Shown here in pieces: positions 296 through 49,125 of a stretch of DNA of 52,154 nt (position 1 is the first letter of the stretch; each line of letters begins with the position of its first letter). The position numbers and the translations under genes are program-made. The DNA is taken from contig JAUMYO010000003.1 of the NCBI GenBank assembly GCA_030528605.1, forward strand, positions 21,316 through 73,469. The letters run 5' to 3'. This stretch comes from Peptostreptococcaceae bacterium. Lineage in GTDB: Bacteria; Bacillota; Clostridia; Peptostreptococcales; Filifactoraceae. Under the pieces are notes generated by a model that searched no databases, was not told the origin of the DNA, and saw nothing but the letters and a program-made list of their open reading frames with translations.

Positions 296-850
296 TTATG
301 TCGGTCCGGTTTTGGGTCGGATGGACCACAGGATCTCGGTGATCTCGTTCAGTGCATCCATATCCGTCAAGTCGATATCTTTTCCGTAGGTGTGAAGCAT
401 CCGTTCGATATCCGTTGTTCGATTTTTGGGTAGTGTATTTTTGATCCTGAGATAAAGAGATCTCACCCGAAGCCGGTCCATAAAGCCAAGCTTTGCATGA
501 TCGATCTTCCCCGGCAGATGAATGATCTTTGTCCGCTCATACAAATGCTCCGGCATTTTCTTTTTGATATCGTCGCGGATATTTTTAATATTTTGCACAT
601 CTTTCGGATCGGACAGTCCTACCGTTGCGATAAGGATAAAGGGTGCGGAGTCCTGCGGGATCGCTCTGATCGTTCGGTAAAGACCCAATACTTCTCCGGC
701 ATATAATCCGCCGACATAAATGATGGTATCGCAGGAATGCAGATTTTTTGTTTCCGAAAAAGATCTCGCCTCTATAAATGTTCTGTTCGATAATTCTTCC
801 GCATATCTTCTGGCAGAACCGTATTTGCTCCCATACACTATTATCTTCAT
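296..850 (-). CDS. Flavodoxin-fold protein, HemG/flavodoxin_5-like
   Basis: The 184-residue product starts MKIIVYGSKYGSARRYAEEL, the FMN phosphate-binding loop of flavodoxin-like proteins, followed by a Y-V-G-G-L-Y-A-G strand-loop typical of the flavodoxin/protoporphyrinogen oxidase (HemG-like) family. It probably binds FMN and acts as a cytoplasmic electron carrier or oxidoreductase; the substrate is unknown. The start at 850 was chosen for its strong GGGGGAGGT ribosome site. The frame stays open upstream to a TTG at 988 that overlaps the glutamine synthetase stop, but no ribosome site precedes that TTG. The gene lies 134 bp downstream of the glutamine synthetase gene and may be cotranscribed with it. 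Confidence 0.75.
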   Translation of the reverse strand: MKIIVYGSKYGSARRYAEELSNRTFIEARSFSETKNLHSCDTIIYVGGLYAGEVLGLYRTIRAIPQDSAPFILIATVGLSDPKDVQNIKNIRDDIKKKMPEHLYERTKIIHLPGKIDHAKLGFMDRLRVRSLYLRIKNTLPKNRTTDIERMLHTYGKDIDLTDMDALNEITEILWSIRPKTGPT

Positions 851-984
851 AATGACCTCCCCCATATCGGACGATCCCATCCTCACATACTTTTGACGAT
901 ACCGGGTCAAGTACCTTCTCTCATCAGGACCAAAAAGATCGCTTGCGATCATTTCCCAGAGATCTCCGGATGTGTATCCTTCGA

Positions 985-2901
985 TCAAAATAGATTTTTA
1001 ATATATTGATTGTAGAGCTTTTTGAGCTCTGAGATCTTGTTATTCATCTCAAGCTGTAAGAAAGAGACCTTTCGATGATCCTTCTCTTCGATCGCCGTCT
1101 TTATTCTGGTAAAGACTGATTTTTTCTCCAGTCCGTCCTTCATCAGATCCCATCGGATCGAATTGATCTTCGTCCAGTTGACGATATCCAGATCGGAGAG
1201 ATCTTCGGTATTCTCATGGGCTTTTTTGCATCGACGCACGACTTCGATATTATCATCGATGATCCGATGCGCAAGCTCATAGGTCCAGGTGTTCAAAATG
1301 AAGGTTTTGTAGGACTCGATCAGTTTTTCCGTAAAAACGCCCTCTTGCTTTAATGTTTCGAGCTTTTCCGGATGGTGCTCCAGATTGATGATATTGTCGT
1401 ACACGGTAGCAGGCGGTCTCCCGAAACGGATATTTCTTTCCTGCTCGGTATAAAAATCAAAGACATTCTCCTCACTTCGATACTGACGATCTTTTTCGAG
1501 ATAGACCGCATCTTCACCCGGCTCTTTGGAGAACTCTTTGACCAGTTCATCCGGACTGAGCTTCATCCCGGCATTTTCCAGCCCGTCGATCATCGCCTGA
1601 TAACAAGTCGCCAACACGAGATACACATTGGTAAACGGATTCGGAGATCGCAGCTCGAATCTTGTCGCCATCGGAGATTCCCTATCTTTGATCAGCCCGA
1701 CGAGGATCGAACGATTTCTTGAAGGCAATTTGGCAGAGCGACCCAGCGACGATACGATACAGATCGGTGCTTCAAAGTGCGGTTTCAGACGATTGAGCGA
1801 ATCGATCGACGGAGCGACGAAAGGATTGATCACTTCATAGTTTTTGAGGATCCCCATCAAAGATGCGATCGCAAAGCTGCTCGCAAAATGGTTTTCAAGA
1901 TCGTGATGCGTGAAAAGATTGATCCTTCTTCCGGAATTCAGGATCGCCGCAACGCCGATATGAGTATGCTTTCCGCTTCCGGCAACGCCCTCGATCGGTT
2001 TTGCCGCAAAGGTAACTTCCAGATTGTATCGGTTGAAGACTTCTTTGACGAGATTGCGAACGATGATCTCAATGTCGGCAGCGTGGATATCCTTGGAGTA
2101 TTTCCAGTCGATCTCCAGCTGCTCCATCACATGGATCTGCGTTCCGTTCGGATTGATCTGCGAAGTGACCCCGCCGACTTCTTTGTGCCCCATCTCCGGC
2201 TCAAAACCATATTTTTGCATGATCTCCAAAGTCTTTTCCATGGCGGAACGAACATTCCCCTCCGTACGCTTCCAATACTGTTCCTTCAACGTCTGAGAAA
2301 CGCAGAGCTTCTCTTCGTCCGCGAGATCTTCCGGCGTTTTGACCCAAAACTCCAGTTCGGTCGCCGATGTCAGAACGATCTCTTGGATCTTCTCATCCGG
2401 CTGCATGCCGATCTCTTGCCGAAAACCTTCCTTCTCCTCGACATATTTCAGCGCATATTTCTTGAGGCGTTCGGACGCTCTTTTTAGGATCGATCGGGAA
2501 CATACCATCCGATCATTATGGATCAGGAACGACGGAATGATCAGCGTTCCGACGAATTTCCCATCCACAGTGACACTGCTGTAATTATGATCCACATACC
2601 AATCGACATCACGATCCGGCAGAATGATCACTCTGGCATCATCCAAGGTCGCGATCTTTGGCAAGGTAACGCTCGAACCGTCGGTTTGGACACCCAGATG
2701 CAATTGCTTTTCCATGTCTTCCAAAAAAAGTTCGATCGGGATCCGTTCATCCGTTCCGTTTCCTCCAAAATCAAATCCGACATAGGAAACAAATCGGATC
2801 TCCGGATGCTCCTTCAACAATTTGGTAAGATCCTCTACATTTCTTCCGATCTTCGGGATCCTAAAGACCAGACCCTCCATCGCTTTGTCTTCGATATACA
2901 T
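985..2901 (-). CDS. Long-form glutamine synthetase
   Basis: This 638-residue protein belongs to the glutamine synthetase superfamily (glutamate + NH3 + ATP to glutamine). An E-x-E metal motif in ATELEFWV lies near residues 182-184, the glutamate-binding loop GSGKHTHIG near 308-316, a RLKPHFEAP segment matches the ATP/loop region, and RFELRSPNPFTN near 420 matches the conserved R-x-E-x-R motif. Ordinary type I enzymes have about 440 residues. Here about 200 extra residues are split between an N-terminal extension and a long helical C-terminal tail rich in Glu, Lys and Arg. The start at 2901 (MYIEDKAMEG) has an AAGGAG site 7 bases upstream; the frame is open further upstream without a better start. 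The family assignment is firm. Whether the enzyme makes glutamine or acts on another amine is not shown. Confidence 0.85.
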   Translation of the reverse strand: MYIEDKAMEGLVFRIPKIGRNVEDLTKLLKEHPEIRFVSYVGFDFGGNGTDERIPIELFLEDMEKQLHLGVQTDGSSVTLPKIATLDDARVIILPDRDVDWYVDHNYSSVTVDGKFVGTLIIPSFLIHNDRMVCSRSILKRASERLKKYALKYVEEKEGFRQEIGMQPDEKIQEIVLTSATELEFWVKTPEDLADEEKLCVSQTLKEQYWKRTEGNVRSAMEKTLEIMQKYGFEPEMGHKEVGGVTSQINPNGTQIHVMEQLEIDWKYSKDIHAADIEIIVRNLVKEVFNRYNLEVTFAAKPIEGVAGSGKHTHIGVAAILNSGRRINLFTHHDLENHFASSFAIASLMGILKNYEVINPFVAPSIDSLNRLKPHFEAPICIVSSLGRSAKLPSRNRSILVGLIKDRESPMATRFELRSPNPFTNVYLVLATCYQAMIDGLENAGMKLSPDELVKEFSKEPGEDAVYLEKDRQYRSEENVFDFYTEQERNIRFGRPPATVYDNIINLEHHPEKLETLKQEGVFTEKLIESYKTFILNTWTYELAHRIIDDNIEVVRRCKKAHENTEDLSDLDIVNWTKINSIRWDLMKDGLEKKSVFTRIKTAIEEKDHRKVSFLQLEMNNKISELKKLYNQYIKNLF

Positions 2902-3153
2902 AATATGCTCCTTATGTTCAATTTCCGATATGATCAACATAGGATCCCGATCCAGAATACCCTGGGAGGCATCGTTTTCGTCTTGAGATCCTATCGACCT
3001 TCCGGACAAAGATCTCTGATCGCTTCCCTGTCCATGACACCAAGATCCGGATCCTCTTTGGAAAACATCCCGCCCGCTCTCACGATAAAGGCGGAGCCGG
3101 TTTTCAAAAAAGCCGATCATTCATATCTATCAAGGTAAAGCTGTCTCAAAGGC

Positions 3154-4443
3154 TTACTTACTTGCTTCCGATCGGATCTCCTGAAGTGCCAGCATCGCTC
3201 CGAGTTTGGAATGTTCATACGTCAAACCGCCCTGAAAATACACGGTATAGGGCTCACGGATCGGCGCATCGGCACTCAGTTCGATCGACGAGCCTTGAAC
3301 AAATGCTCCTGCCGCCATGATCACCATCGAATCATAGCCCGGCATCTCCCATGGCTCCGGCATCACAAAAGAGTCGACCGGTGCCGCCTTCTGTATCCCT
3401 CGGCAGAAAGCGATGATCTCCTGCTCCGATCTCAGCCCGACCGACTGGATGATGTCGCTCCTTTCATCGCTGTGGTGAGGAAAAGTCTCGTAACCCGATT
3501 CCTCAAAGAGCTTTGCACAGAATATCGCACCTTTTTTGGCATTGGCAACGACCATCGGCGCGATGAAAAGCCCTTGCAGGAGCACTCTCGTCATCCCGAA
3601 AGTCAATCCGCATTCCTTCCCGATGCCCGGCGCAGTCATACGATCCGCCACCAGAGAAACAAGATCCGCCCTTCCGGCAATATATCCTCCGCCCAGCGCA
3701 AAGCCTCCGCCCGGGTTCTTGATCAGAGAACCTGCGATCAGATCGGCTCCCGCCTCGATCGGTTCGCGCTCTTCCATAAATTCGCCATAACAATTATCGA
3801 TCATAACGATCACTGAAGGCTCGATACTGCGAATACGGGCTATGATCTGCTCGATGTCGCGGATCGTCAGTGCCCTCCTTCTAAAATAGCCTTTGGAACG
3901 CTGGATATAGATCATCTTCGGCTTATCGTTTTGTTTGATCGCTTCGACGATCTTTTCTTCATCAAAATCCCCATTTTCCAGAAGCTCGATCTGAGTATAT
4001 CGCACGCCCCTCTCCATCAACGAATTGTAGGAGGGTGTTATTCCGATCGTTTGATCCAAAGTATCATAGGGCTTCCCGGAGATGGAGATGAGCTCCGATC
4101 CGCTCTTGAGGATCCCCTCCAGACACAGCGCGAGCGCATGCGTACCGTTTGCGATGGTCGGTCGAACGATGGCATCTTCCGATCGAAAGATCAGCGAGAA
4201 GATCTCTTCCGTCTTCTCGCGTCCGATATCGTTGTATCCATATCCCGTGTTCCACGCAAAATGGCGGTCGGACAGTCCGGCGCTGCGCATCGCATGGATC
4301 ACTTTGTAAATATTGAACTGCTGCAGCTCCTCGATCTCTGTAAAAAGAGGTCTCAGCTCCTGATCGATCCGCTGCGCCATCTCCAAAATATCAGGTTGCA
4401 ACCCGAAATATTCTGTCATATGACCTGAGAGATCCGATCGCAT
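3154..4443 (-). CDS. Methionine gamma-lyase family (aluminium-resistance type) PLP protein
   Basis: The 429-residue product matches the PLP fold-type I family annotated as methionine gamma-lyase or aluminium resistance protein (Alum_res). The probable PLP lysine is Lys242 in GSLIKNPGGG, with the cofactor-ring aspartate at MIDNCYGEF (about 216). RPTIANGTHAL (about 94) forms the phosphate-binding turn. The substrate is probably a sulfur amino acid but is not proven for this family. The start codon overlaps the stop of the upstream aminopeptidase gene as TAATG, implying translational coupling. A second ATG eight codons in (MTEYFG) is possible. Confidence 0.85.
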   Translation of the reverse strand: MRSDLSGHMTEYFGLQPDILEMAQRIDQELRPLFTEIEELQQFNIYKVIHAMRSAGLSDRHFAWNTGYGYNDIGREKTEEIFSLIFRSEDAIVRPTIANGTHALALCLEGILKSGSELISISGKPYDTLDQTIGITPSYNSLMERGVRYTQIELLENGDFDEEKIVEAIKQNDKPKMIYIQRSKGYFRRRALTIRDIEQIIARIRSIEPSVIVMIDNCYGEFMEEREPIEAGADLIAGSLIKNPGGGFALGGGYIAGRADLVSLVADRMTAPGIGKECGLTFGMTRVLLQGLFIAPMVVANAKKGAIFCAKLFEESGYETFPHHSDERSDIIQSVGLRSEQEIIAFCRGIQKAAPVDSFVMPEPWEMPGYDSMVIMAAGAFVQGSSIELSADAPIREPYTVYFQGGLTYEHSKLGAMLALQEIRSEASK

Positions 4444-5985: not shown

Positions 5986-8142
5986 CTAAGCCTTTGTGAG
6001 TTTGTCAAAGTTGATGTCGATCTTTTTGATCCCGGAACCGCCAAAAACGATGGTGTAAGAGCTGTCGCTTTTGGCAACGATCTTTCCTTTCCCAAAACTC
6101 GGATGGATCACCTGTTCTCCCATCTCGAACTGATCCACGACCTTCGGTCCGGTATCCACCTGAGCCATCATCTCTCTTTTTTTCTTGTATTTATCGACCA
6201 AAGAATATCCGCCTGATCCGGATGTCGCTGTTCGGTCGACTTTTCCGTTGAGGAGTTCTTGCGGCACATCCTTGATAAATCTCGAAACGATCTGGGAACT
6301 GTACTTCCCAAAATAATTTCGGCTGTGTGCATAAGAGAGATACAGCCTTTCCTTCGCCCTTGTCATACCGACATAGCAGAGCCTCCGTTCCTCTTCGATC
6401 TGAATATCGCTCATCAACGACTTTGCCGACGGAAAGATCCCTTCCTCCATCCCCGTTATGAATACAACGGGAAATTCAAGCCCTTTTGAACTATGGAGCG
6501 TCATCAACGTGACCGTGTCCTCGCCTTCTTCATATACATCGATATCACTCGAAAGAGCGACCGTCGATAAAAAAGCTTCGAGAGAGCGGTCTTCACTGCT
6601 TGATGTAAATTCCTGCGCGACCGATCTTAATTCGTTGATATTCTCAAGCCGGGTCTGAAACTCGATCTCGCCCTCTTCTTCAAGCTCCTTGATATATCCT
6701 GAATTGGCAACGATCTTCTCGATCAGCTCTTCGATCGGTATCACCTCGCTCATCGAGCGAAGCGAAGAGATCAAAAGAACGAAGGTGCGGATCGCATTTT
6801 GGGCTCTGGTCGAGATATCGAGTTCCTCATGATCCAAAAGCGCACTGAACAGCGATTCTCCTTTGATATTGGCTTGGATCTCGACCTTTTCCAAAGTCTT
6901 GATCCCCAGTCCACGCTTCGGCGTATTGATGATCCGCTTGAGCGAGATATCGTCTGAGGGATTTGCAATGATCCGAAGATAGGCAAGGATGTCTTTGATC
7001 TCTTTTCGATCGTAGAATTTGAGCCCGCCGTAGATATTGTATGAGATCTGTGCCTTGATCAATTCTTCTTCAAGCAATCGGGACTGGACATTGGTACGAT
7101 AGAGGATCGCGATATCTTTGTTGTCAAAAGAAGAGCGGAGAGATCGGATCTCTCGCGCAACATTTTTCGCCTCCATACGATCATCCTGCGACTTGATCAG
7201 TTCGATCTTGATATCGCTTTTGTTTTGAGTCCAGAGCTTTTTCTTTTTTCTACCGGTGTTCTTCTCGATCACATGATTCGCCGCAGTCAATATATTTTGT
7301 GTCGAACGGTAGTTTTGTTCCAGCTTCACGATCACCGCATCGGAATAGTCATTCGCAAAGTCCAGGATATTCCGGATATCCGCTCCTCGCCATCCGTAGA
7401 TCGCCTGATCGTCATCTCCCACGACACAGATGTTGCGATACTTCTGCGCGAGAAGATGGATCAATACATACTGCGAATGGTTGGTATCCTGATACTCATC
7501 GACCATGATATATTGGAACTTATCTTGGTAAAAACTAAGGATCTCCGGATGATCTTTCAGTATTTTTATTGTCAAAAAGATCATATCATCAAAATCGACC
7601 GCATTATTTTTTTTCAATCGTTCCTGATACATCTTATAGACCTTAGATGCGGTCTTCGTGCGAATATCCACCGCAAATTTTTCTTCGTATTTGATCGGCG
7701 TGATCAGCTCATCTTTCGCCGAAGAGATCACGCTCAAAAAATATGCCGGCTTCATCACTTCCGCATTGACCTTGAGCTCCTTCATGCAATCCTTGACGAG
7801 CGTCTGCTGATCATAGTGGTCATAGATCACAAAGTCTCGCGAATAGCCGATCTTATCGATATGCGTTCGGAGGATCTTCAGGCAGATCGAGTGAAAAGTT
7901 CCGATCCACATATAGGGATAGGTCTCGCCCATCAGATGAAAGAGCCTCGTCTTCATTTCGTTCGCCGCCTTATTCGTAAAAGTCAGCGCCAGAATATTGG
8001 ACGGCGATCCTCCCGAGCGGATGATGTGTGCGATCCGATTGATGATCACCTTCGTCTTTCCGGAACCTGCTCCTGCCAAGATCTGAAGCGGACCTTCGAT
8101 CGTCCGGACCGCAAGTTGCTGTTGTTCATTAAGAGTTTCCAT
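5986..8142 (-). CDS. pcrA: ATP-dependent DNA helicase PcrA (UvrD/Rep family)
   Basis: The 718-residue superfamily 1 helicase unwinds DNA with 3'-5' polarity in repair and in rolling-circle plasmid replication. The N-terminal Q-motif (LNEQQQLAV) is followed by Walker A GAGSGKT at about 24-30, motif Ia TFTNKAANEM, motif II DEYQDTN near 215, QAIYGWRGAD, the motif IV region QNYRSTQ, and C-terminal VTLMTLHSSKGLEFP and YVGMTRAKE. The last ~55 residues form the PcrA Tudor-like domain (VIHPSFGKGKIV). Length and motifs are complete. An AGGAG site five bases upstream supports the start at 8142. Confidence 0.96.
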   Translation of the reverse strand: METLNEQQQLAVRTIEGPLQILAGAGSGKTKVIINRIAHIIRSGGSPSNILALTFTNKAANEMKTRLFHLMGETYPYMWIGTFHSICLKILRTHIDKIGYSRDFVIYDHYDQQTLVKDCMKELKVNAEVMKPAYFLSVISSAKDELITPIKYEEKFAVDIRTKTASKVYKMYQERLKKNNAVDFDDMIFLTIKILKDHPEILSFYQDKFQYIMVDEYQDTNHSQYVLIHLLAQKYRNICVVGDDDQAIYGWRGADIRNILDFANDYSDAVIVKLEQNYRSTQNILTAANHVIEKNTGRKKKKLWTQNKSDIKIELIKSQDDRMEAKNVAREIRSLRSSFDNKDIAILYRTNVQSRLLEEELIKAQISYNIYGGLKFYDRKEIKDILAYLRIIANPSDDISLKRIINTPKRGLGIKTLEKVEIQANIKGESLFSALLDHEELDISTRAQNAIRTFVLLISSLRSMSEVIPIEELIEKIVANSGYIKELEEEGEIEFQTRLENINELRSVAQEFTSSSEDRSLEAFLSTVALSSDIDVYEEGEDTVTLMTLHSSKGLEFPVVFITGMEEGIFPSAKSLMSDIQIEEERRLCYVGMTRAKERLYLSYAHSRNYFGKYSSQIVSRFIKDVPQELLNGKVDRTATSGSGGYSLVDKYKKKREMMAQVDTGPKVVDQFEMGEQVIHPSFGKGKIVAKSDSSYTIVFGGSGIKKIDINFDKLTKA

Positions 8143-8157
8143 TTTTTCTCCTGTTTG

Positions 8158-8186
8158 TAAAACAAAAGGGACAAAAAGTCCCTCTA
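8158..8186 (-). terminator. Intrinsic terminator of the nitroreductase gene
   Basis: On the minus strand a short stem AGGGAC/GTCCCT with a T5 loop is followed by TTTTGTTTT, one base past the nitroreductase stop codon. It separates that gene from pcrA. Confidence 0.8.
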
Positions 8187-8187
8187 T

Positions 8188-8991
8188 TTATAATACGAAA
8201 GTTACCTGACACTCAAAGTCTTCGTACTTTTCGGCAGTGCCCTGATCCGGGAATTTCGCTTTGACCTTCAGACCTTTCGTTTCGCAAGCCTTCACAAAGA
8301 ACAGCGATATGATCCCCGTATCGATGTTGAAGTTCTTATCTTCTTTTTTGTTGATGAACAGCTTGCACTCATTTTTGTCGATCATAAATGCCCAAGGCTG
8401 TTCATTCCCCCATGAAGGAGCAAGCTTAGTCAGATAGAATACTTCGGCAAGTCCCAGTTGCTCAAGTTCTTCCCAGGTCATTTCTTCTTTCCAATTGTGG
8501 TTATATACGAATTCGGCGATCCCTTTTCGGTCGGAAGTTTTTCCGGTATTCTTACGGAAGATCCCTGAGTATTCTTCTCCGATCCCGAGGCATCCGAGCA
8601 GTGTGATCCCGTCTTTTTTTGCAAAAAGCGAAGCATAATCTACGCCTTCCACGGTGCTGATCCAACAAGAACCCAGACCCGCATTCCATAGTGAAAAACG
8701 GACCCATTCCATGCAGTATCCCGCATTGATCTTTGAAGGAGCATCCTCTTTTCCAAACACCAACACATAGGCAGGCGCGGAAATGATCTTCCCGAAGTAA
8801 CCGATCTTGCCGTCAAAGTCCTCGGCAAATCTCTTGCCGTCTTCAATGACTGCAAACTCCAGATCCGTATCATTGATCTTCTCAAGCGAAGAAAGGTTAT
8901 CGATGATCATCGAAACCAGGTTTGTATCGATCTTCTTCTTCGTAAACTCTCGGACCGATTTGATCTCTGTAATAATTTTTTCGTAGTTCAT
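8188..8991 (-). CDS. Nitroreductase-family protein (TM1586-like)
   Basis: The 267-residue product resembles the two-lobed TM1586-type nitroreductase group, in which two half-domains of the FMN nitroreductase fold are joined in one chain. KSVREFTKKKID near the start matches the FMN-binding R-x-R/S region. NAGYCMEWVRFSLWNAGLGSCWIS matches the central helix, and APSWGNEQPW in the second half matches the conserved S-x-x-N-x-Q-P segment. It probably reduces quinones, nitro compounds or flavins with FMN. AAGGAG precedes ATG at 8991. It is flanked downstream by its own terminator, so it is likely monocistronic. Confidence 0.85.
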   Translation of the reverse strand: MNYEKIITEIKSVREFTKKKIDTNLVSMIIDNLSSLEKINDTDLEFAVIEDGKRFAEDFDGKIGYFGKIISAPAYVLVFGKEDAPSKINAGYCMEWVRFSLWNAGLGSCWISTVEGVDYASLFAKKDGITLLGCLGIGEEYSGIFRKNTGKTSDRKGIAEFVYNHNWKEEMTWEELEQLGLAEVFYLTKLAPSWGNEQPWAFMIDKNECKLFINKKEDKNFNIDTGIISLFFVKACETKGLKVKAKFPDQGTAEKYEDFECQVTFVL

Positions 8992-43769: not shown

Positions 43770-44414
43770 CTACTGTCCCCCCTTAAAATTTTCTTTGATC
43801 TGCAGAATATTCTCGTTTAGCAGATCGCGCATCGAAGCGGATGTGAGCGTCGCCCCTGTGATCGCTTCAATATTCGCTCCTTTTTGCGGCGGATAATCAA
43901 AAAACTTTCCATCGGTCAAGAGAAGATCCAAATTTCGGAACTGCCCTTTGAATCGATCCTCTTCGATCCGTCCACCAAGACCCGGCGTCTCACTGTGTGT
44001 TACGATGTCCATACCGATCATTTGCTCCAGATCTTTGTCCAGAGCGACCAACGCATCCACCGTTCCCCACAACGCTTTGCCCGTGATCGGAAATACATAG
44101 GATCTTACTTCGCCATTTTCCGTATAGATATAGTAATTCGGCTCCAAAGAGGATCCACTCGTGTCCATAAAATCGATCGGTTTTACTTCCACATGTTTCT
44201 CAAAGATCTCTTCTGCCTGCTCCGGCGTTTCAAAAGGAACATTCATCGCATACAAGAGCTTCTGGTGAAAGATCGCCTTTTGTTGCAACTCGATCTTCTC
44301 CTTGGTCGCAAAGTCCAGCAGTGCCAATATCAGCACCATCACAAACGCCAGCACCGTCATAAAAACGAGCGGATACCACAATGTATCGTTTCGTGAAGTC
44401 TTCGCCTTAGCCAT
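43770..44414 (-). CDS. nqrC: Na+-NQR subunit C (covalent FMN)
   Basis: The 214-residue subunit has one N-terminal transmembrane helix and an extracytoplasmic domain whose IEAITGATLTSAS motif carries the threonine that binds FMN by a phosphoester. GLGGRIEEDRFKGQF is also characteristic. The start at 44414 (MAKAKTSRND) has GGGGGCGG upstream and overlaps the nqrB end by 8 bases; the longer in-frame start at 44468 lies inside nqrB and is unlikely. FMN attachment needs an ApbE-type transferase not present in this window. Confidence 0.92.
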   Translation of the reverse strand: MAKAKTSRNDTLWYPLVFMTVLAFVMVLILALLDFATKEKIELQQKAIFHQKLLYAMNVPFETPEQAEEIFEKHVEVKPIDFMDTSGSSLEPNYYIYTENGEVRSYVFPITGKALWGTVDALVALDKDLEQMIGMDIVTHSETPGLGGRIEEDRFKGQFRNLDLLLTDGKFFDYPPQKGANIEAITGATLTSASMRDLLNENILQIKENFKGGQ

Positions 44415-45372
44415 TTGTAACCGCCCCCTTCTTTTTCTTTTTATCATTATGTGATCTGACGGTCTCATCGACCAACGGTACGAAAGTATTGGCGATCAAG
44501 ATCGCAAACATCATCCCTTCTGCAAAAAGCGAGAAGCTTCGGATGATGAAAGTTACGATACCGATAATGATCCCGTAGATCCATTTGCCCTCTTTTGTCG
44601 ATGCTGCCGAGACCGGATCCGTCGCCATAAAGACAGCTCCAAACAGGAATCCGCCGCTAAGCACACCATGGATCGGCGAGATCAGCTGAGCAGATGACAC
44701 AGCACCTATCACAAAACTTGCTCCAAAAAAACCGACTACACAGGCAACCATGATCTCCCATGCCGCTGTTTTTTTGTATATCAAATAAGCCGCTCCCAAA
44801 AGGATCAGCACTTTGCTCGTCTCACCCATTACCCCGTTGATATTTCCGATCAGAAGATGACTGAGCTCCGAAAGAGCATTCTCACTTCGATATTGGATCA
44901 GCGGAGTAGCCGTTGTGATCGCTTCGACCGCCGGATTGATCCACTTCACAAAACCGCCCGGAAAAGAGGATGCCGCCTGCGTCCAATGGATCGTCATGAA
45001 ATTAGGGAAACACACATAGGCGAAAGCACGACCGACCAAAGCCGGATTGAAAACATTCCTTCCGAATCCGCCAAATGCCATTTTACCAAAAACGACACCA
45101 AACAGGATACCGACTACAGCGATCCAATAAGGGATCGATGGAGGCAAGGTCAATGTGTATAATATCGCGGTCACAAAAACCGACTCCGTCACCGGCTTGT
45201 TCTCCGCCTTCGTAAACAGATATTCTGCAAGAAATGCAAAAGCCAACACCACCAACTGAACAGCGATGGTCCGCCAGCCATAAAAAAAGATCGATGCGAT
45301 GACGAGCGGGCAAAGTGCAGTAAGCACATTTGTCATCATCTTCTGCCTTTGGATCAATTTCTTAGAACTCAA
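44407..45372 (-). CDS. nqrB: Na+-NQR subunit B (covalent FMN, main channel)
   Basis: The 321-residue membrane protein carries LPPSIPYWIAVVGILFGVVFGK, GGFGRNVFNPALVGRAF-like family sequence and the flavin site AITTATPL. It is shorter than Vibrio NqrB (about 410), so the N-terminal quinone-linked region may be reduced. The start is TTG at 45372 after AGGAG; an ATG at 45339 with AAAGG upstream is the alternative. No nqrA precedes it: the next 200 bases are non-coding and then a plus-strand locus begins. Confidence 0.9.
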   Translation of the reverse strand: MSSKKLIQRQKMMTNVLTALCPLVIASIFFYGWRTIAVQLVVLAFAFLAEYLFTKAENKPVTESVFVTAILYTLTLPPSIPYWIAVVGILFGVVFGKMAFGGFGRNVFNPALVGRAFAYVCFPNFMTIHWTQAASSFPGGFVKWINPAVEAITTATPLIQYRSENALSELSHLLIGNINGVMGETSKVLILLGAAYLIYKKTAAWEIMVACVVGFFGASFVIGAVSSAQLISPIHGVLSGGFLFGAVFMATDPVSAASTKEGKWIYGIIIGIVTFIIRSFSLFAEGMMFAILIANTFVPLVDETVRSHNDKKKKKGAVTNG

Positions 45373-45577
45373 CTTTCTTCACTCCTATTCTGAAATTACT
45401 TTATATCGATGATCCTTTTCATTCTATCACATTTTTGACAGTTTTGCCTGACTTATCTCTAAAATTTTATATATTTTCGCCCAAAAAACGTCTCCATTCC
45501 GCTAACGCCTCCGATACGAAGATCTGCATCCATTTGCCGATATCCGATCTATCCTCTTCCGAAAACATTATCTTCGC
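45373..45577. other. Divergent gap upstream of nqrB
   Basis: About 205 bases separate nqrB (leftward) from the rightward promoter of the Wadjet remnant. No clear promoter for nqr could be fixed; TAGAAT on the minus strand near 45425 is a possible -10 with no good -35. No gene or shared repeat was seen. Confidence 0.4.
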
Positions 45578-45605
45578 TTGACATCCGGATCATTAATATT
45601 AGAAT
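45578..45605 (+). promoter_or_regulatory. Surviving promoter of the Wadjet remnant
   Basis: TTGACA (45578-45583), a 16-base spacer and TAGAAT (45600-45605). It lies about 105 bases before the first homologous codons of the jetA remnant and points at it. AGAAAGGA at 45661 could be a leftover ribosome site. Confidence 0.7.
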
Positions 45606-45709
45606 GATATTATACTTCGACACGAATACTTTTATACAATATACTTATCGAACAAATCATAGAAAGGATACACCGCACCTCGAATCTCAACACGAATCGA
45701 AGACTATAA

Positions 45710-46813
45710 AAAATATCTGAAGCAAATTATCTCGTTGCCACCAAAAATACCGAAAGATATCGAATGATCTTGCGATATTTTTTTGTGGAGCACGAAAGAA
45801 TGCGTGATCATATCTATCCCGAACATATCCTTGAGCATATCCGGAGCATCCCGGGTCATGAAAACTATAGCGAAAATGAGCTGAGTCAAGACCTCGATCA
45901 GCTCGTCGCTTGGAAGAACATCATCCCCTGTCAGGAGATCCAAAACCCGCGGACCATCGCCGAATTCAATCAAAAAATTTTCCGGTATCAGATCACATCC
46001 TATACCATCCGGATCGAGCGGATGCTTGAGCAGCTCGAAAAATCGGGAGAGGAATTTCGCGGTTCGTTGGACAAAAAACCTTTTGAGAAGCTCTATCTCG
46101 CTCTCTGTGATTTTTTGGAAGAAGATCATGAAGAACGATCAGCGGAAAACTGGCATTATGTATTGAATATCTTCACCTCGGTACGCGAAAATACCGCGGA
46201 TCATCCGGCATATCTAAGCAGCGAAAAAGCAAGCGAATGGATGAAAAGAGAAAGTTTTTTTGCTTATAAGGAAAAATTTATCAGTTATTTGCGCGATTTT
46301 GTTCAAGGGAGCTATCAGATGGCGATCAAGATCCAAGATCTCTTGGAAAAACAGGATGAAGCTCTTTTAACGGAAAGATTTGTTGCATTATCCCAAGTCC
46401 CGGATCTCACTCCGCGTTTTGAAGATATCCAAACAGATCAGGATATCAAGGTCGAAGAACTGAAGGAGCTGTGGAGCACGATACGTCAATGGTTTGTGCA
46501 AAGCTCCGGACATCCCTCTCAATATCAGATCTTACAAGAACGTACAAATAAAACGATCCGAAATATCACGGCAAATATTCGTCGGATCGGAGAAAGAAAT
46601 CGCCGAAAACTCAGCCGAAAAAAAGACTATCTGCATGTTGCAAAATGGTTTTTAGATGCACAGAGCATCGATGAGGCTCATTGCATCGCTTCCGTTAAAA
46701 ACCTTAATATCTATCAGCTGATACGAGAAAAAGGCTCCAACATCGTCGTCAGTCAGGAATATCATTGGAACGGCGCCGAACGCATAGAAGGAGGCACCTA
46801 TGATCAAAAGTAA
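45710..46813 (+). pseudogene. Wadjet jetA (DUF2397/TIGR02677) remnant fused in frame to a jetC tail
   Basis: Homology to DUF2397 proteins starts at codons reading ISEANYLVATKNTERYR, before the first ATG (45764); a TAA at 45707 precedes them and no ATG, GTG or TTG lies between, so the natural start is lost. From 45764 the 349-codon frame follows the family: RYFFVEHERMRDHIYPEHI, DLDQLVAWKNIIP, QITSYTIRIERMLEQLE, AYKEKFISYLRDFV and KDYLHVAKWFLDA. After DEAHCIAS (about codon 310, near 46690) the family's last ~100-150 residues are missing. The sequence turns into LNIYQLIRE and YHWNGAERIEGG, which resembles the extreme C-terminus of TIGR02680 (JetC). The stop overlaps the jetD remnant behind a GGAGG site. 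In intact systems JetA is the kleisin of an SMC complex that cleaves plasmids. Confidence 0.8.
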
Positions 46814-47513
46814 AGCGATCGCATTTTTCAGAAACATTACAGGCAAACTTTTCTCATTTAGGCGAACATCTTCAAAAATACGATCTTCTGCACGATCTCT
46901 ACGCAACTATACGAAGTCCAAATTAGATCATGCCTCGATCGAAATACTCAATAACGCACTAAAGCACTTGCCCTTAGAAAAGATCACATACCTCCCTCTG
47001 TATGCGAACCGGATCACCGGTCACCCTCATGCTTTTGCCCGACAAGCGCCGCTCGGAGATTGGCTGGAAAAAATATTGGTCAAAAAATATGAAAGTGCGA
47101 TCCCTGAGGAAGAGCAAGAAAATTATTTTCAAAGCTCCAAAACGGAGCAGCGTTACCAACGGATGCTTCGATACGGTCTTTTGCCGGATGATATATCCAA
47201 CTTCGTGACCGTCAACAGCATTTTGGCTTACAAGGACACAGAGAAACCCGATCCGAATGGCAGACAACCTCAAAAGCAGGTACCCTGAACAGATCGACCT
47301 GAAATTTATGACCGAAAAATACTACCTCTTCTCCGATCCGAAAAACAAGATCGATGCTCGCAGACTCAAAAAAATAGAAAAGATCTTCGATGTCGATCTT
47401 GATCGCACATCTCAGCAAATAAAAAACTTGAATGCTCAGGATACCAAGAAGAATTGCTTGACCTTTATAGTGTTGAGATCGAGCAACTTTTTTATTCGGA
47501 GAGTTCGGTCTGA
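46800..47513 (+). pseudogene. Wadjet jetD (TIGR02679/DUF2399) remnant, deleted and frameshifted
   Basis: The first frame (46800-47288) keeps a native ATG with GGAGG and a central family block: ALKHLPLEKITYLPLYANRI, TGHPHAFARQAPLGDWL and LRYGLLPDDISNFVTVNSI. At about 47240-47257 it jumps in another frame to the C-terminal DUF2399 end (MADNLKSRYPEQIDL, DARRLKKIEKIFDV), so the middle, including the toprim-like nuclease core, is gone. A second frame change near 47441 is needed to reach YQEELLDLYSVEIEQL and the true stop TGA at 47511. Near 46864-46923 a competing frame reads EHLQKYDLLHDLYATIRSP, hinting at one more lesion. Intact JetD (about 400 residues) is the nuclease of Wadjet. Confidence 0.75.
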
Positions 47514-47955
47514 TACGGATACCCCTTTGAACTCCTGTATCGATACGATATGAGTGATACCCCTGACACTAAACCCATTTGAACAAATCGTGTCGAGCCG
47601 ATCCTCTATGAGTAGTAGCTCTGACCGTTCGTTTCAGCAACTTGGTCGATCCTTTCGTATCATTTGTCATCCGATCGGATAAAAGCGAAAATTTTTTATA
47701 CGATCTATTAGGTTGTGGTATAAGAGAATTTGTCGACATCACCGATCCTTAAAGATCAATCAAACTATTCAAAATAGATCACAGTGCTATGAAACGTCAT
47801 TATCGATCAGTATCTGTTGGAATACGAATATCCGATAAGATCACCACTCGAAAAGTTATTCTTCGGCTCGATTTGTAAAATATAGAAACCGAAAGCATGT
47901 TGTAGCGATTTGATCGGACCTTAGCATAAAAAGGGCGTTGTTCTCAAAAAGATAT
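47514..47955. other. Gene-free stretch after the Wadjet remnant
   Basis: About 440 bases without a credible gene. The part at 47643-47727 matches the intergenic repeat near 25180. The rest is AT-rich with many GATC sites and may be decayed remains of the lost locus or of a mobile element. Confidence 0.5.
47643..47727. repeat. Dispersed non-coding repeat 2, copy 2
   Basis: Contains ATCGGATAAAA, GCGAAAAT, TATTAGGT and GGTATAAGAG and aligns with 25180-25265. No frame is conserved between the copies. Confidence 0.55.
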
Positions 47956-48030: not shown

Positions 48031-49125
48031 ATGAAAAAGTTTAGTGTTTTTATGGCAATGTTACTTATCTCGACAACGCTGGGTACGACATTTGTATCTG
48101 CAGACAACAAAAATACGGTGGATCACACCAAGGAAGTCCAGACGAATCAGTATCGTGCTCATGGCGGCGACAGGGCAGAGATCACTGAGATGCTGAAGGC
48201 ATTGGTGAAAGACATCAAAGATCCGGAAGCTTATGCAAAATATATAGCAAAAGGAGCAGATGCCAAGGAGATCAAAGCTTATTTCAAAGATCTTGCGAAG
48301 TATGGCGAGATCAGTCTTCAGGCTCAAAATTTTGAGCGATTTTACCAAGTGGAAGGCTTTGATGAGTTCACAAGTTTTAGAGGGATCTTGCGATTCAAAT
48401 ATGTCATCAAGCGAGCGGACGGCAGATCCATCGAATATATCGATCTTCTCGGGGTAGCTAAGCTTGGCAAAGAAGCTACGGATTGGAAAGTATGGAAAGT
48501 GTTCTGGAGAGATCCGGGGATCGATGTAACGGATGTTCGTTTGATCCAGTTGGAGAAGCCGAAAAAGGGCGAAGAGATCTGTGTGATGACAACAGATGCC
48601 GGCGTGATCAAGTTCAGACTGTTCCCGGATAAGACACCTCTCACTGCTAAGAACTTCAAAGAGCTTGCTGAAAAAGGTTTTTATGACGATATGATGTACT
48701 CTCGCGTCATCAAAGACTTTGTTATCCAGATCGGCGACCCGGACCATCCGGAAAAAGAAGAAGTGTCGATCTATGACGGAAGATTCAAGGATGAATTCAA
48801 CAGAGATCTATTCAATTTCCGAGGAGCTTTGTGTATGGCGAATGAAGGTCCGAATACGAACACTAATGTATTCTACATCGTTCAAAACCCGAAAGCCAAA
48901 GATGATCATTTAGACCTGACCAGTCTTCCGCTGAATGCCGAAGCGAAATATAAAGAGATCGGCGGTCTACCGCATCTTGACAATCGATATACCGTTTTTG
49001 GACAAATATTTGAAGGGCTTGAGGTAGTGGACAAGATCGCTTCCCAAAAGACCAATGAAGAGGACAAGCCGGTGAAAGATCCGATCAAAGTATTAAAAAT
49101 CGAATTCAAAAAATACGAAGGATGA
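48031..49125 (+). CDS. Secreted cyclophilin-type peptidyl-prolyl cis-trans isomerase
   Basis: The 364-residue protein starts with a signal peptide (MKKFSVFMAMLLISTTLG, cleavage likely after VSA at about residue 24, no lipobox cysteine). Residues about 40-180 form a helical and beta region with no recognised domain. The cyclophilin domain is about 185-364: TDAGVIKFRLFPDKTPLTAKNF, FYDDMMYSRVIKDFVIQIGD, FRGALCMANEGPNTNTNVFYIV and YTVFGQIFEGLEVVDKI. The usual F-H-R active-site arginine is kept as YSRV, while the Ser-Q-F-F motif reads TNVFYI. It would fold exported proteins. AGGAGG five bases before ATG, own promoter, and an inverted repeat directly after the stop make it a single-gene unit. Confidence 0.9.
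   Translation: MKKFSVFMAMLLISTTLGTTFVSADNKNTVDHTKEVQTNQYRAHGGDRAEITEMLKALVKDIKDPEAYAKYIAKGADAKEIKAYFKDLAKYGEISLQAQNFERFYQVEGFDEFTSFRGILRFKYVIKRADGRSIEYIDLLGVAKLGKEATDWKVWKVFWRDPGIDVTDVRLIQLEKPKKGEEICVMTTDAGVIKFRLFPDKTPLTAKNFKELAEKGFYDDMMYSRVIKDFVIQIGDPDHPEKEEVSIYDGRFKDEFNRDLFNFRGALCMANEGPNTNTNVFYIVQNPKAKDDHLDLTSLPLNAEAKYKEIGGLPHLDNRYTVFGQIFEGLEVVDKIASQKTNEEDKPVKDPIKVLKIEFKKYEG

Follow-up and report, generated by a model that had tools for sequence, protein, structure and literature searches.

Type II Wadjet operon remnant containing an in-frame jetA-jetC deletion junction in a Peptostreptococcaceae bacterium

The locus at positions 45578-47513 of the window (the whole stretch analyzed here, 52,154 nucleotides of contig JAUMYO010000003.1 from assembly GCA_030528605.1) is a remnant belonging to the Wadjet II family and not a working member of it. 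It is very probably a chromosomal type II jetABCD operon that has lately decayed into pseudogenes, with the JetA-JetC chimera at its center being a deletion accident without demonstrated function. JetA, JetB, JetC and JetD are a kleisin, a KITE protein, an SMC protein and a Toprim nuclease, respectively, and plasmid suppression needs all four (reviewed in PMC10586767). The locus holds remnants of jetA, jetC and jetD in operon order, carries inactivating lesions, and has a counterpart operon with open frames in a relative.

Results

Composition of the remnant

Residues 1-311 of the 349-aa open reading frame at 45764-46813 (plus strand) are JetA (DUF2397/TIGR02677), matching TIGR02677 (E = 1.6e-61, above the cut-off), the PADLOC model JetA2 (3.8e-106) and residues 29-345 of JetA in the Wadjet II structure 9qe0 (PDB 9qe0/9qe1; E = 1.8e-74). 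An earlier sequence-only reading had assigned the locus to Wadjet type II (the DUF2397/DUF2398/TIGR02680/DUF2399 set), had called it decayed and had proposed an in-frame JetA-JetC fusion; it named the lack of any PF09660 match as grounds for dropping the assignment. PF09660 in fact matches strongly (E = 8e-73), and our HMM searches, together with comparison to a relative, agree with all three proposals. The frame passes without a stop from JetA into the last ~39 codons of JetC (TIGR02680, which like PF09660 matches this ORF). Residues ~305-341 match PADLOC JetC2 (1.1e-5) and the very end of TIGR02680 (positions 1320-1355 of 1356; E = 0.015), and a JetC model derived from the loci of eight relatives recognizes the tail at 2e-7 (positions 1337-1367).

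The relative, here called G005, is the closest counterpart that we found. It is a member of the same family (MAG JAUMWQ010000123.1, labelled Filifactor alocis isolate S15M_Sa_18_sub), with jetA, jetB and the N-terminal part of jetC on one contig and the C-terminal part of jetC with jetD on another; the rnf genes that neighbor our locus were not seen on these two short contigs. Unlike the window, G005 has all four genes in open frames (jetC being cut by the contig end). Its JetA, a 506-codon frame, is about 74-76% identical to the remnant, and its JetC C-terminus is ~70-75% identical to the window's tail. The remnant keeps the Wadjet II gene order (JetABCD; DUF2397, DUF2398, TIGR02680, DUF2399/JetD2) as well as the jetC-jetD overlap: the jetD remnant begins at 46800, within the end of the chimera, as the earlier reading had it and as in G005. 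The coordinates of all features are collected in Table 1.

Table 1. Features of the Wadjet II remnant (window coordinates)
Feature	Position	Strand	Remarks
Promoter-like TTGACA-16-TAGAAT upstream of the remnant operon	45578..45605	+	11/12 matches
Leader with the former jetA ribosome-binding site AGAAAGGA, still discernible	45661..45674	+	DNA alignment with G005; blastn alignment begins at 45661
Native jetA start codon site	45675..45677	+	GTG in G005, GCA here; start lost
jetA 5' end with frameshift (native codons 1-30)	45675..45763	+	1-base deletion near 45721
JetA remnant (type II Wadjet kleisin, DUF2397/TIGR02677)	45764..46696	+	Profile positions about 25-341 of 498; internal ATG start
jetA/jetC deletion junction	46692..46696	+	CCGT common to both sides (G005 jetA TCCGTG, jetC ACCGTC)
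jetC tail, last ~39 codons in frame and stop	46694..46813	+	SMC ATPase C-terminal tail, after Walker B
jetD remnant, piece 1	46800..47288	+	Start codon and JetD positions ~156-259 of 430; most of residues ~11-118 deleted
jetD remnant, piece 2	47251..47500	+	JetD positions ~352-412, then C-terminus after a frameshift near 47430

None of the four proteins is complete. The DUF2397 kleisin has lost its start and C-terminus and is frameshifted, retaining only about profile positions 25-341 of 498; with the G005 JetB as query, no DUF2398 KITE protein was found in the remnant or elsewhere in the genome; the SMC-like ATPase, with its Walker A, signature and Walker B motifs and its coiled coil, is reduced to the last ~39 codons; and the Toprim nuclease lacks the core that carries the Glu and DxD motifs. 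The two jetD pieces match separate parts of the JetD2 HMM. Positions 260-351, which held both Toprim motifs (VEN and GDFDPEG in G005), have been deleted out of frame, and the stretch behind the start is missing as well, at least to about residue 118, and is accompanied by a frameshift. In all, jetD bears at least two deletions and two frameshifts, and extends to about 47500.

The junction

DNA homology to G005 jetA can be followed from 45661 to about 46696, and changes to G005 jetC at 46692-46709. The corresponding G005 sequences are TCCTCCGTGATC on the jetA side and GAGACCGTCAAG on the jetC side, and the window reads GCTTCCGTTAAA. By G005 lengths, about 5.7 kb are missing between JetA codon ~341 and JetC codon ~1337, comprising the C-terminal part of JetA, the entire jetB gene and jetC up to its last ~39 codons. 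Alignment to this relative's locus, which the sequence-only reading had recommended for mapping the deletion ends, thus upholds its proposal that one internal deletion took out jetB together with most of jetC. The join from jetA into late jetC stands as it was described, but it lies at native JetA codon ~341 and not at ~310.

The CCGT shared by both sides suggests that the deletion arose by illegitimate recombination between 4-base matches. A microhomology of at least 4 bases arose by chance at 2.2% of random junctions (0.022), and the match, of 4 bases only, is derived from a relative at ~72% DNA identity.

The junction sequence is that of a draft assembly, and the join might be an assembly artefact in an organism that in fact has an intact operon. 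The assembly comprises 134 contigs and is about 85% complete, and that of a sister genome, G001, breaks at the same locus. We nevertheless regard an artefact as very unlikely. Decay is evident even with the junction set aside, from the lost jetA start, the frameshift and the several lesions of jetD; the locus lies inside a 73-kb contig; and a search of the 2.19-Mb assembly (with the G005 JetB and TIGR02680) turned up no further JetB or JetC, an absence that falls short of proof at this level of completeness.

Upstream of the remnant is rnfD (44407-45372) and downstream a peptidyl-prolyl isomerase gene (48031-49125), the space between the two being taken up by the remnant. The window and G001 are homologous up to 45477 on the rnf side and again from 47955 on the isomerase side; since G001 has other DNA there, 45477-47955 is a variable site. 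Read by eye, the two G001 contigs show the end of a putative transposase gene next to rnfD and a Na+/H+ antiporter-like gene next to the isomerase gene.

The 5' end of jetA

The open frame begins at an ATG that corresponds to native codon 31, so that ~30 N-terminal residues are missing. In G005 the native start is read as a GTG behind AGAAAGGA; at the equivalent site in the window there is no ATG, GTG or TTG in the native frame. From there the native frame reads GYTAPRISTRIEDYKK and then shifts, near native codon 16, and EANYLVATKNTERYR runs on in the frame of the ORF. The frameshift sits between the ribosome-binding site and the open frame. Both the start loss and the frameshift were overlooked in the earlier reading, which held that the promoter survives and that the chimera may still be expressed. 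There is a strong upstream match to a promoter, but the region is no richer in such sites than shuffled sequence (seven found versus 6.2 expected). The case for expression like that of the original gene is weakened and not supported: the GTG has been replaced, and the 1-base deletion parts the ribosome-binding site from the frame.

Age and constraint

Differences between the window and G005 JetA fall mostly at third codon positions (0.18, 0.125 and 0.58 per codon position). JetA pN/pS for this pair is 0.17, as compared to 0.15-0.23 for the most similar intact pairs, and the neighboring rnf genes are alike; these ratios are rough, with synonymous sites near saturation. None of 23 invariant JetA positions is broken in the remnant, and relative-rate tests gave no clear acceleration on the window branch for JetA or for JetD piece 1. 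Because JetA evolves as it does in intact pairs by both pN/pS and relative rate, with the mark of normal purifying selection still on it, the loss appears to be recent. The simplest reading would be that selection maintained the Wadjet system until recently and that it then broke down through indels and deletions.

We also considered whether JetA was selectively kept after jetD had died. JetD identity is 51% and 33-43%, against 76% for JetA; intact pairs (for example G015-G049) show nearly the same gap, and the relative rates give no clear excess, so this idea was rejected.

The open JetA frame of 311 codons without a broken invariant position is a point against decay, as it would also fit a retained product. 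The chimera could then be a kept and expressed truncated kleisin in a new role, for example as a dominant-negative blocker of incoming Wadjet or other SMC complexes. A frame open for 349 codons in total, the promoter-like site upstream, the normal pN/pS of JetA and the in-frame JetA-JetB and JetA-JetD chimeras that we found elsewhere (see below) all speak for such a product. However, the native start is lost and frameshifted, and the protein lacks ~30 N-terminal residues as well as its entire C-terminal region.

Comparison with other loci

We ran JetA2 models on three overlapping genome sets, drawn from the class (391), the order (394) and the phylum (398), for ~1,180 genomes in all. Most matches are full length to the normal C-terminus, and many are cut. 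Among the loci that were mapped (15 cut loci plus G051), about eight besides the window have an internal deletion from jetA into jetB, jetC or jetD, two of them being in-frame chimeras. In G051, JetA(4-334) is joined in frame to JetB(175-314), with further pieces of jetB, jetC and jetD; in G653, JetA(4-126) is joined in frame to JetD(150-422) in one 479-codon ORF. G842 has JetA 7-327, JetC 912-1365 and a full JetD, and G269 has JetA 4-138 and a full JetD, while G657, G847, G1123 and G379 have shorter remnants. The decayed loci of G051, G653, G842, G269, G1123 and G847 share with the remnant an internal deletion that begins in jetA and ends in jetB, jetC or jetD, and differ from it in break points and partners, with JetD full in G269 and G842 and nearly full in G051.

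Some of these loci have particulars of their own. That of G051 (L058; G051:C1:2705000-2719000, 848-4163) reads chimera, JetB end, JetC 6-34, JetC 1262-1377 and a nearly complete JetD, and this operon may have undergone several successive internal deletions. The G653 ORF (L141; G653:C1:560500-570500, minus strand, 7468-8823) has an apparently intact start, and the Toprim-like motifs of JetD are present. In G842 (L140; G842:C164) the truncated JetA is followed by a 498-codon C-terminal half of JetC and a full-length JetD, jetB being gone; this genome carries a second, full-length JetA elsewhere. In G269 (L146; G269:C1:333500-342500) jetB is gone as well, and the truncated JetA is followed directly by the full-length JetD ORF.

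Three of the eight scorable junctions are in frame (the window, G051 and G653) and five are not (G842, G657, G847, G1123 and G379), which is the chance rate; selection for in-frame fusions was rejected on this ground. Since about one join in three is in frame, the 349-codon open frame of the window needs no selection. Neither the G653 nor the G051 chimera is found in related genomes, and the window chimera is absent from its genus mates G001 and G002 and from 95 other relatives, so that neither its junction nor its frame is conserved among them. These results, together with the lesions at the jetA 5' end, leave very little probability for a retained kleisin and argue for the accidental origin of the chimera.

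The earlier reading would also have given way to an intact family in which this exact JetA C-terminus is normal; no aligned intact JetA ends in this way. The JetA breaks of three loci do nearly coincide (G051 334, G842 327 and the window 341 of 498), which might hint at a distinct, compact Wadjet-like family. Most JetA matches, however, reach the normal C-terminus, the sequence after the break differs (JetC tail, JetB middle, JetC half), the remaining breaks lie far apart, anywhere from 39 to 226, and the window's JetD is without its catalytic part. Such a family is thus largely refuted, and we give it next to no credence. The breaks are loosely grouped at about 39-49, 222-226 and 327-341 of 498, a sample too small to speak of a hot spot; a common break at ~327-341 was left as weak and unexplained, with the other breaks scattered and the partners differing.

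Discussion

The comparison with G005 suggests how this operon very probably decayed. Illegitimate recombination between two short identical CCGT sequences would have deleted about 5.7 kb, from jetA ~341 to jetC ~1337, joining JetA and JetC in frame by luck. Separately, jetA lost its start and a single base, which shifted its frame, while jetD was hit by two deletions and by two frameshifts. The end state would be a locus unable to sense or cut plasmids. The family of each piece, the junction, the lesions, the lack of jetB and jetC elsewhere in the assembly and the open frames of G005 are observed; how the deletion came about, which event preceded which and the loss of function are inferred.

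Loss of Wadjet by mutation or deletion is likewise described for Xylella fastidiosa, which has jetA/jetC pseudogenes (PMC9148166), and for Clostridium cellulovorans, in which jetABCD was lost spontaneously and a CRISPR locus was deleted via a 5-base repeat (PMC12287153). Among the passages of these two papers that we consulted, none describes an in-frame Jet-Jet chimera. Similar wrecks arise independently in other bacteria, and the locus in the window is real but ordinary.

It is conceivable, at a very slim chance, that truncated JetA chimeras are sometimes kept, with the kleisin fragment and its partner piece interfering with Wadjet and so shielding useful plasmids from it. An active chimera, if true, would be surprising, and nothing that we found points there.

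In summary, the locus offers a well-mapped, clean example of the death of a plasmid-defense operon. Judging from our genome scans, decay through internal deletions that run from jetA into jetC or jetD seems to recur, and the partial JetA and JetD genes left over may be counted as defense genes by annotation tools.
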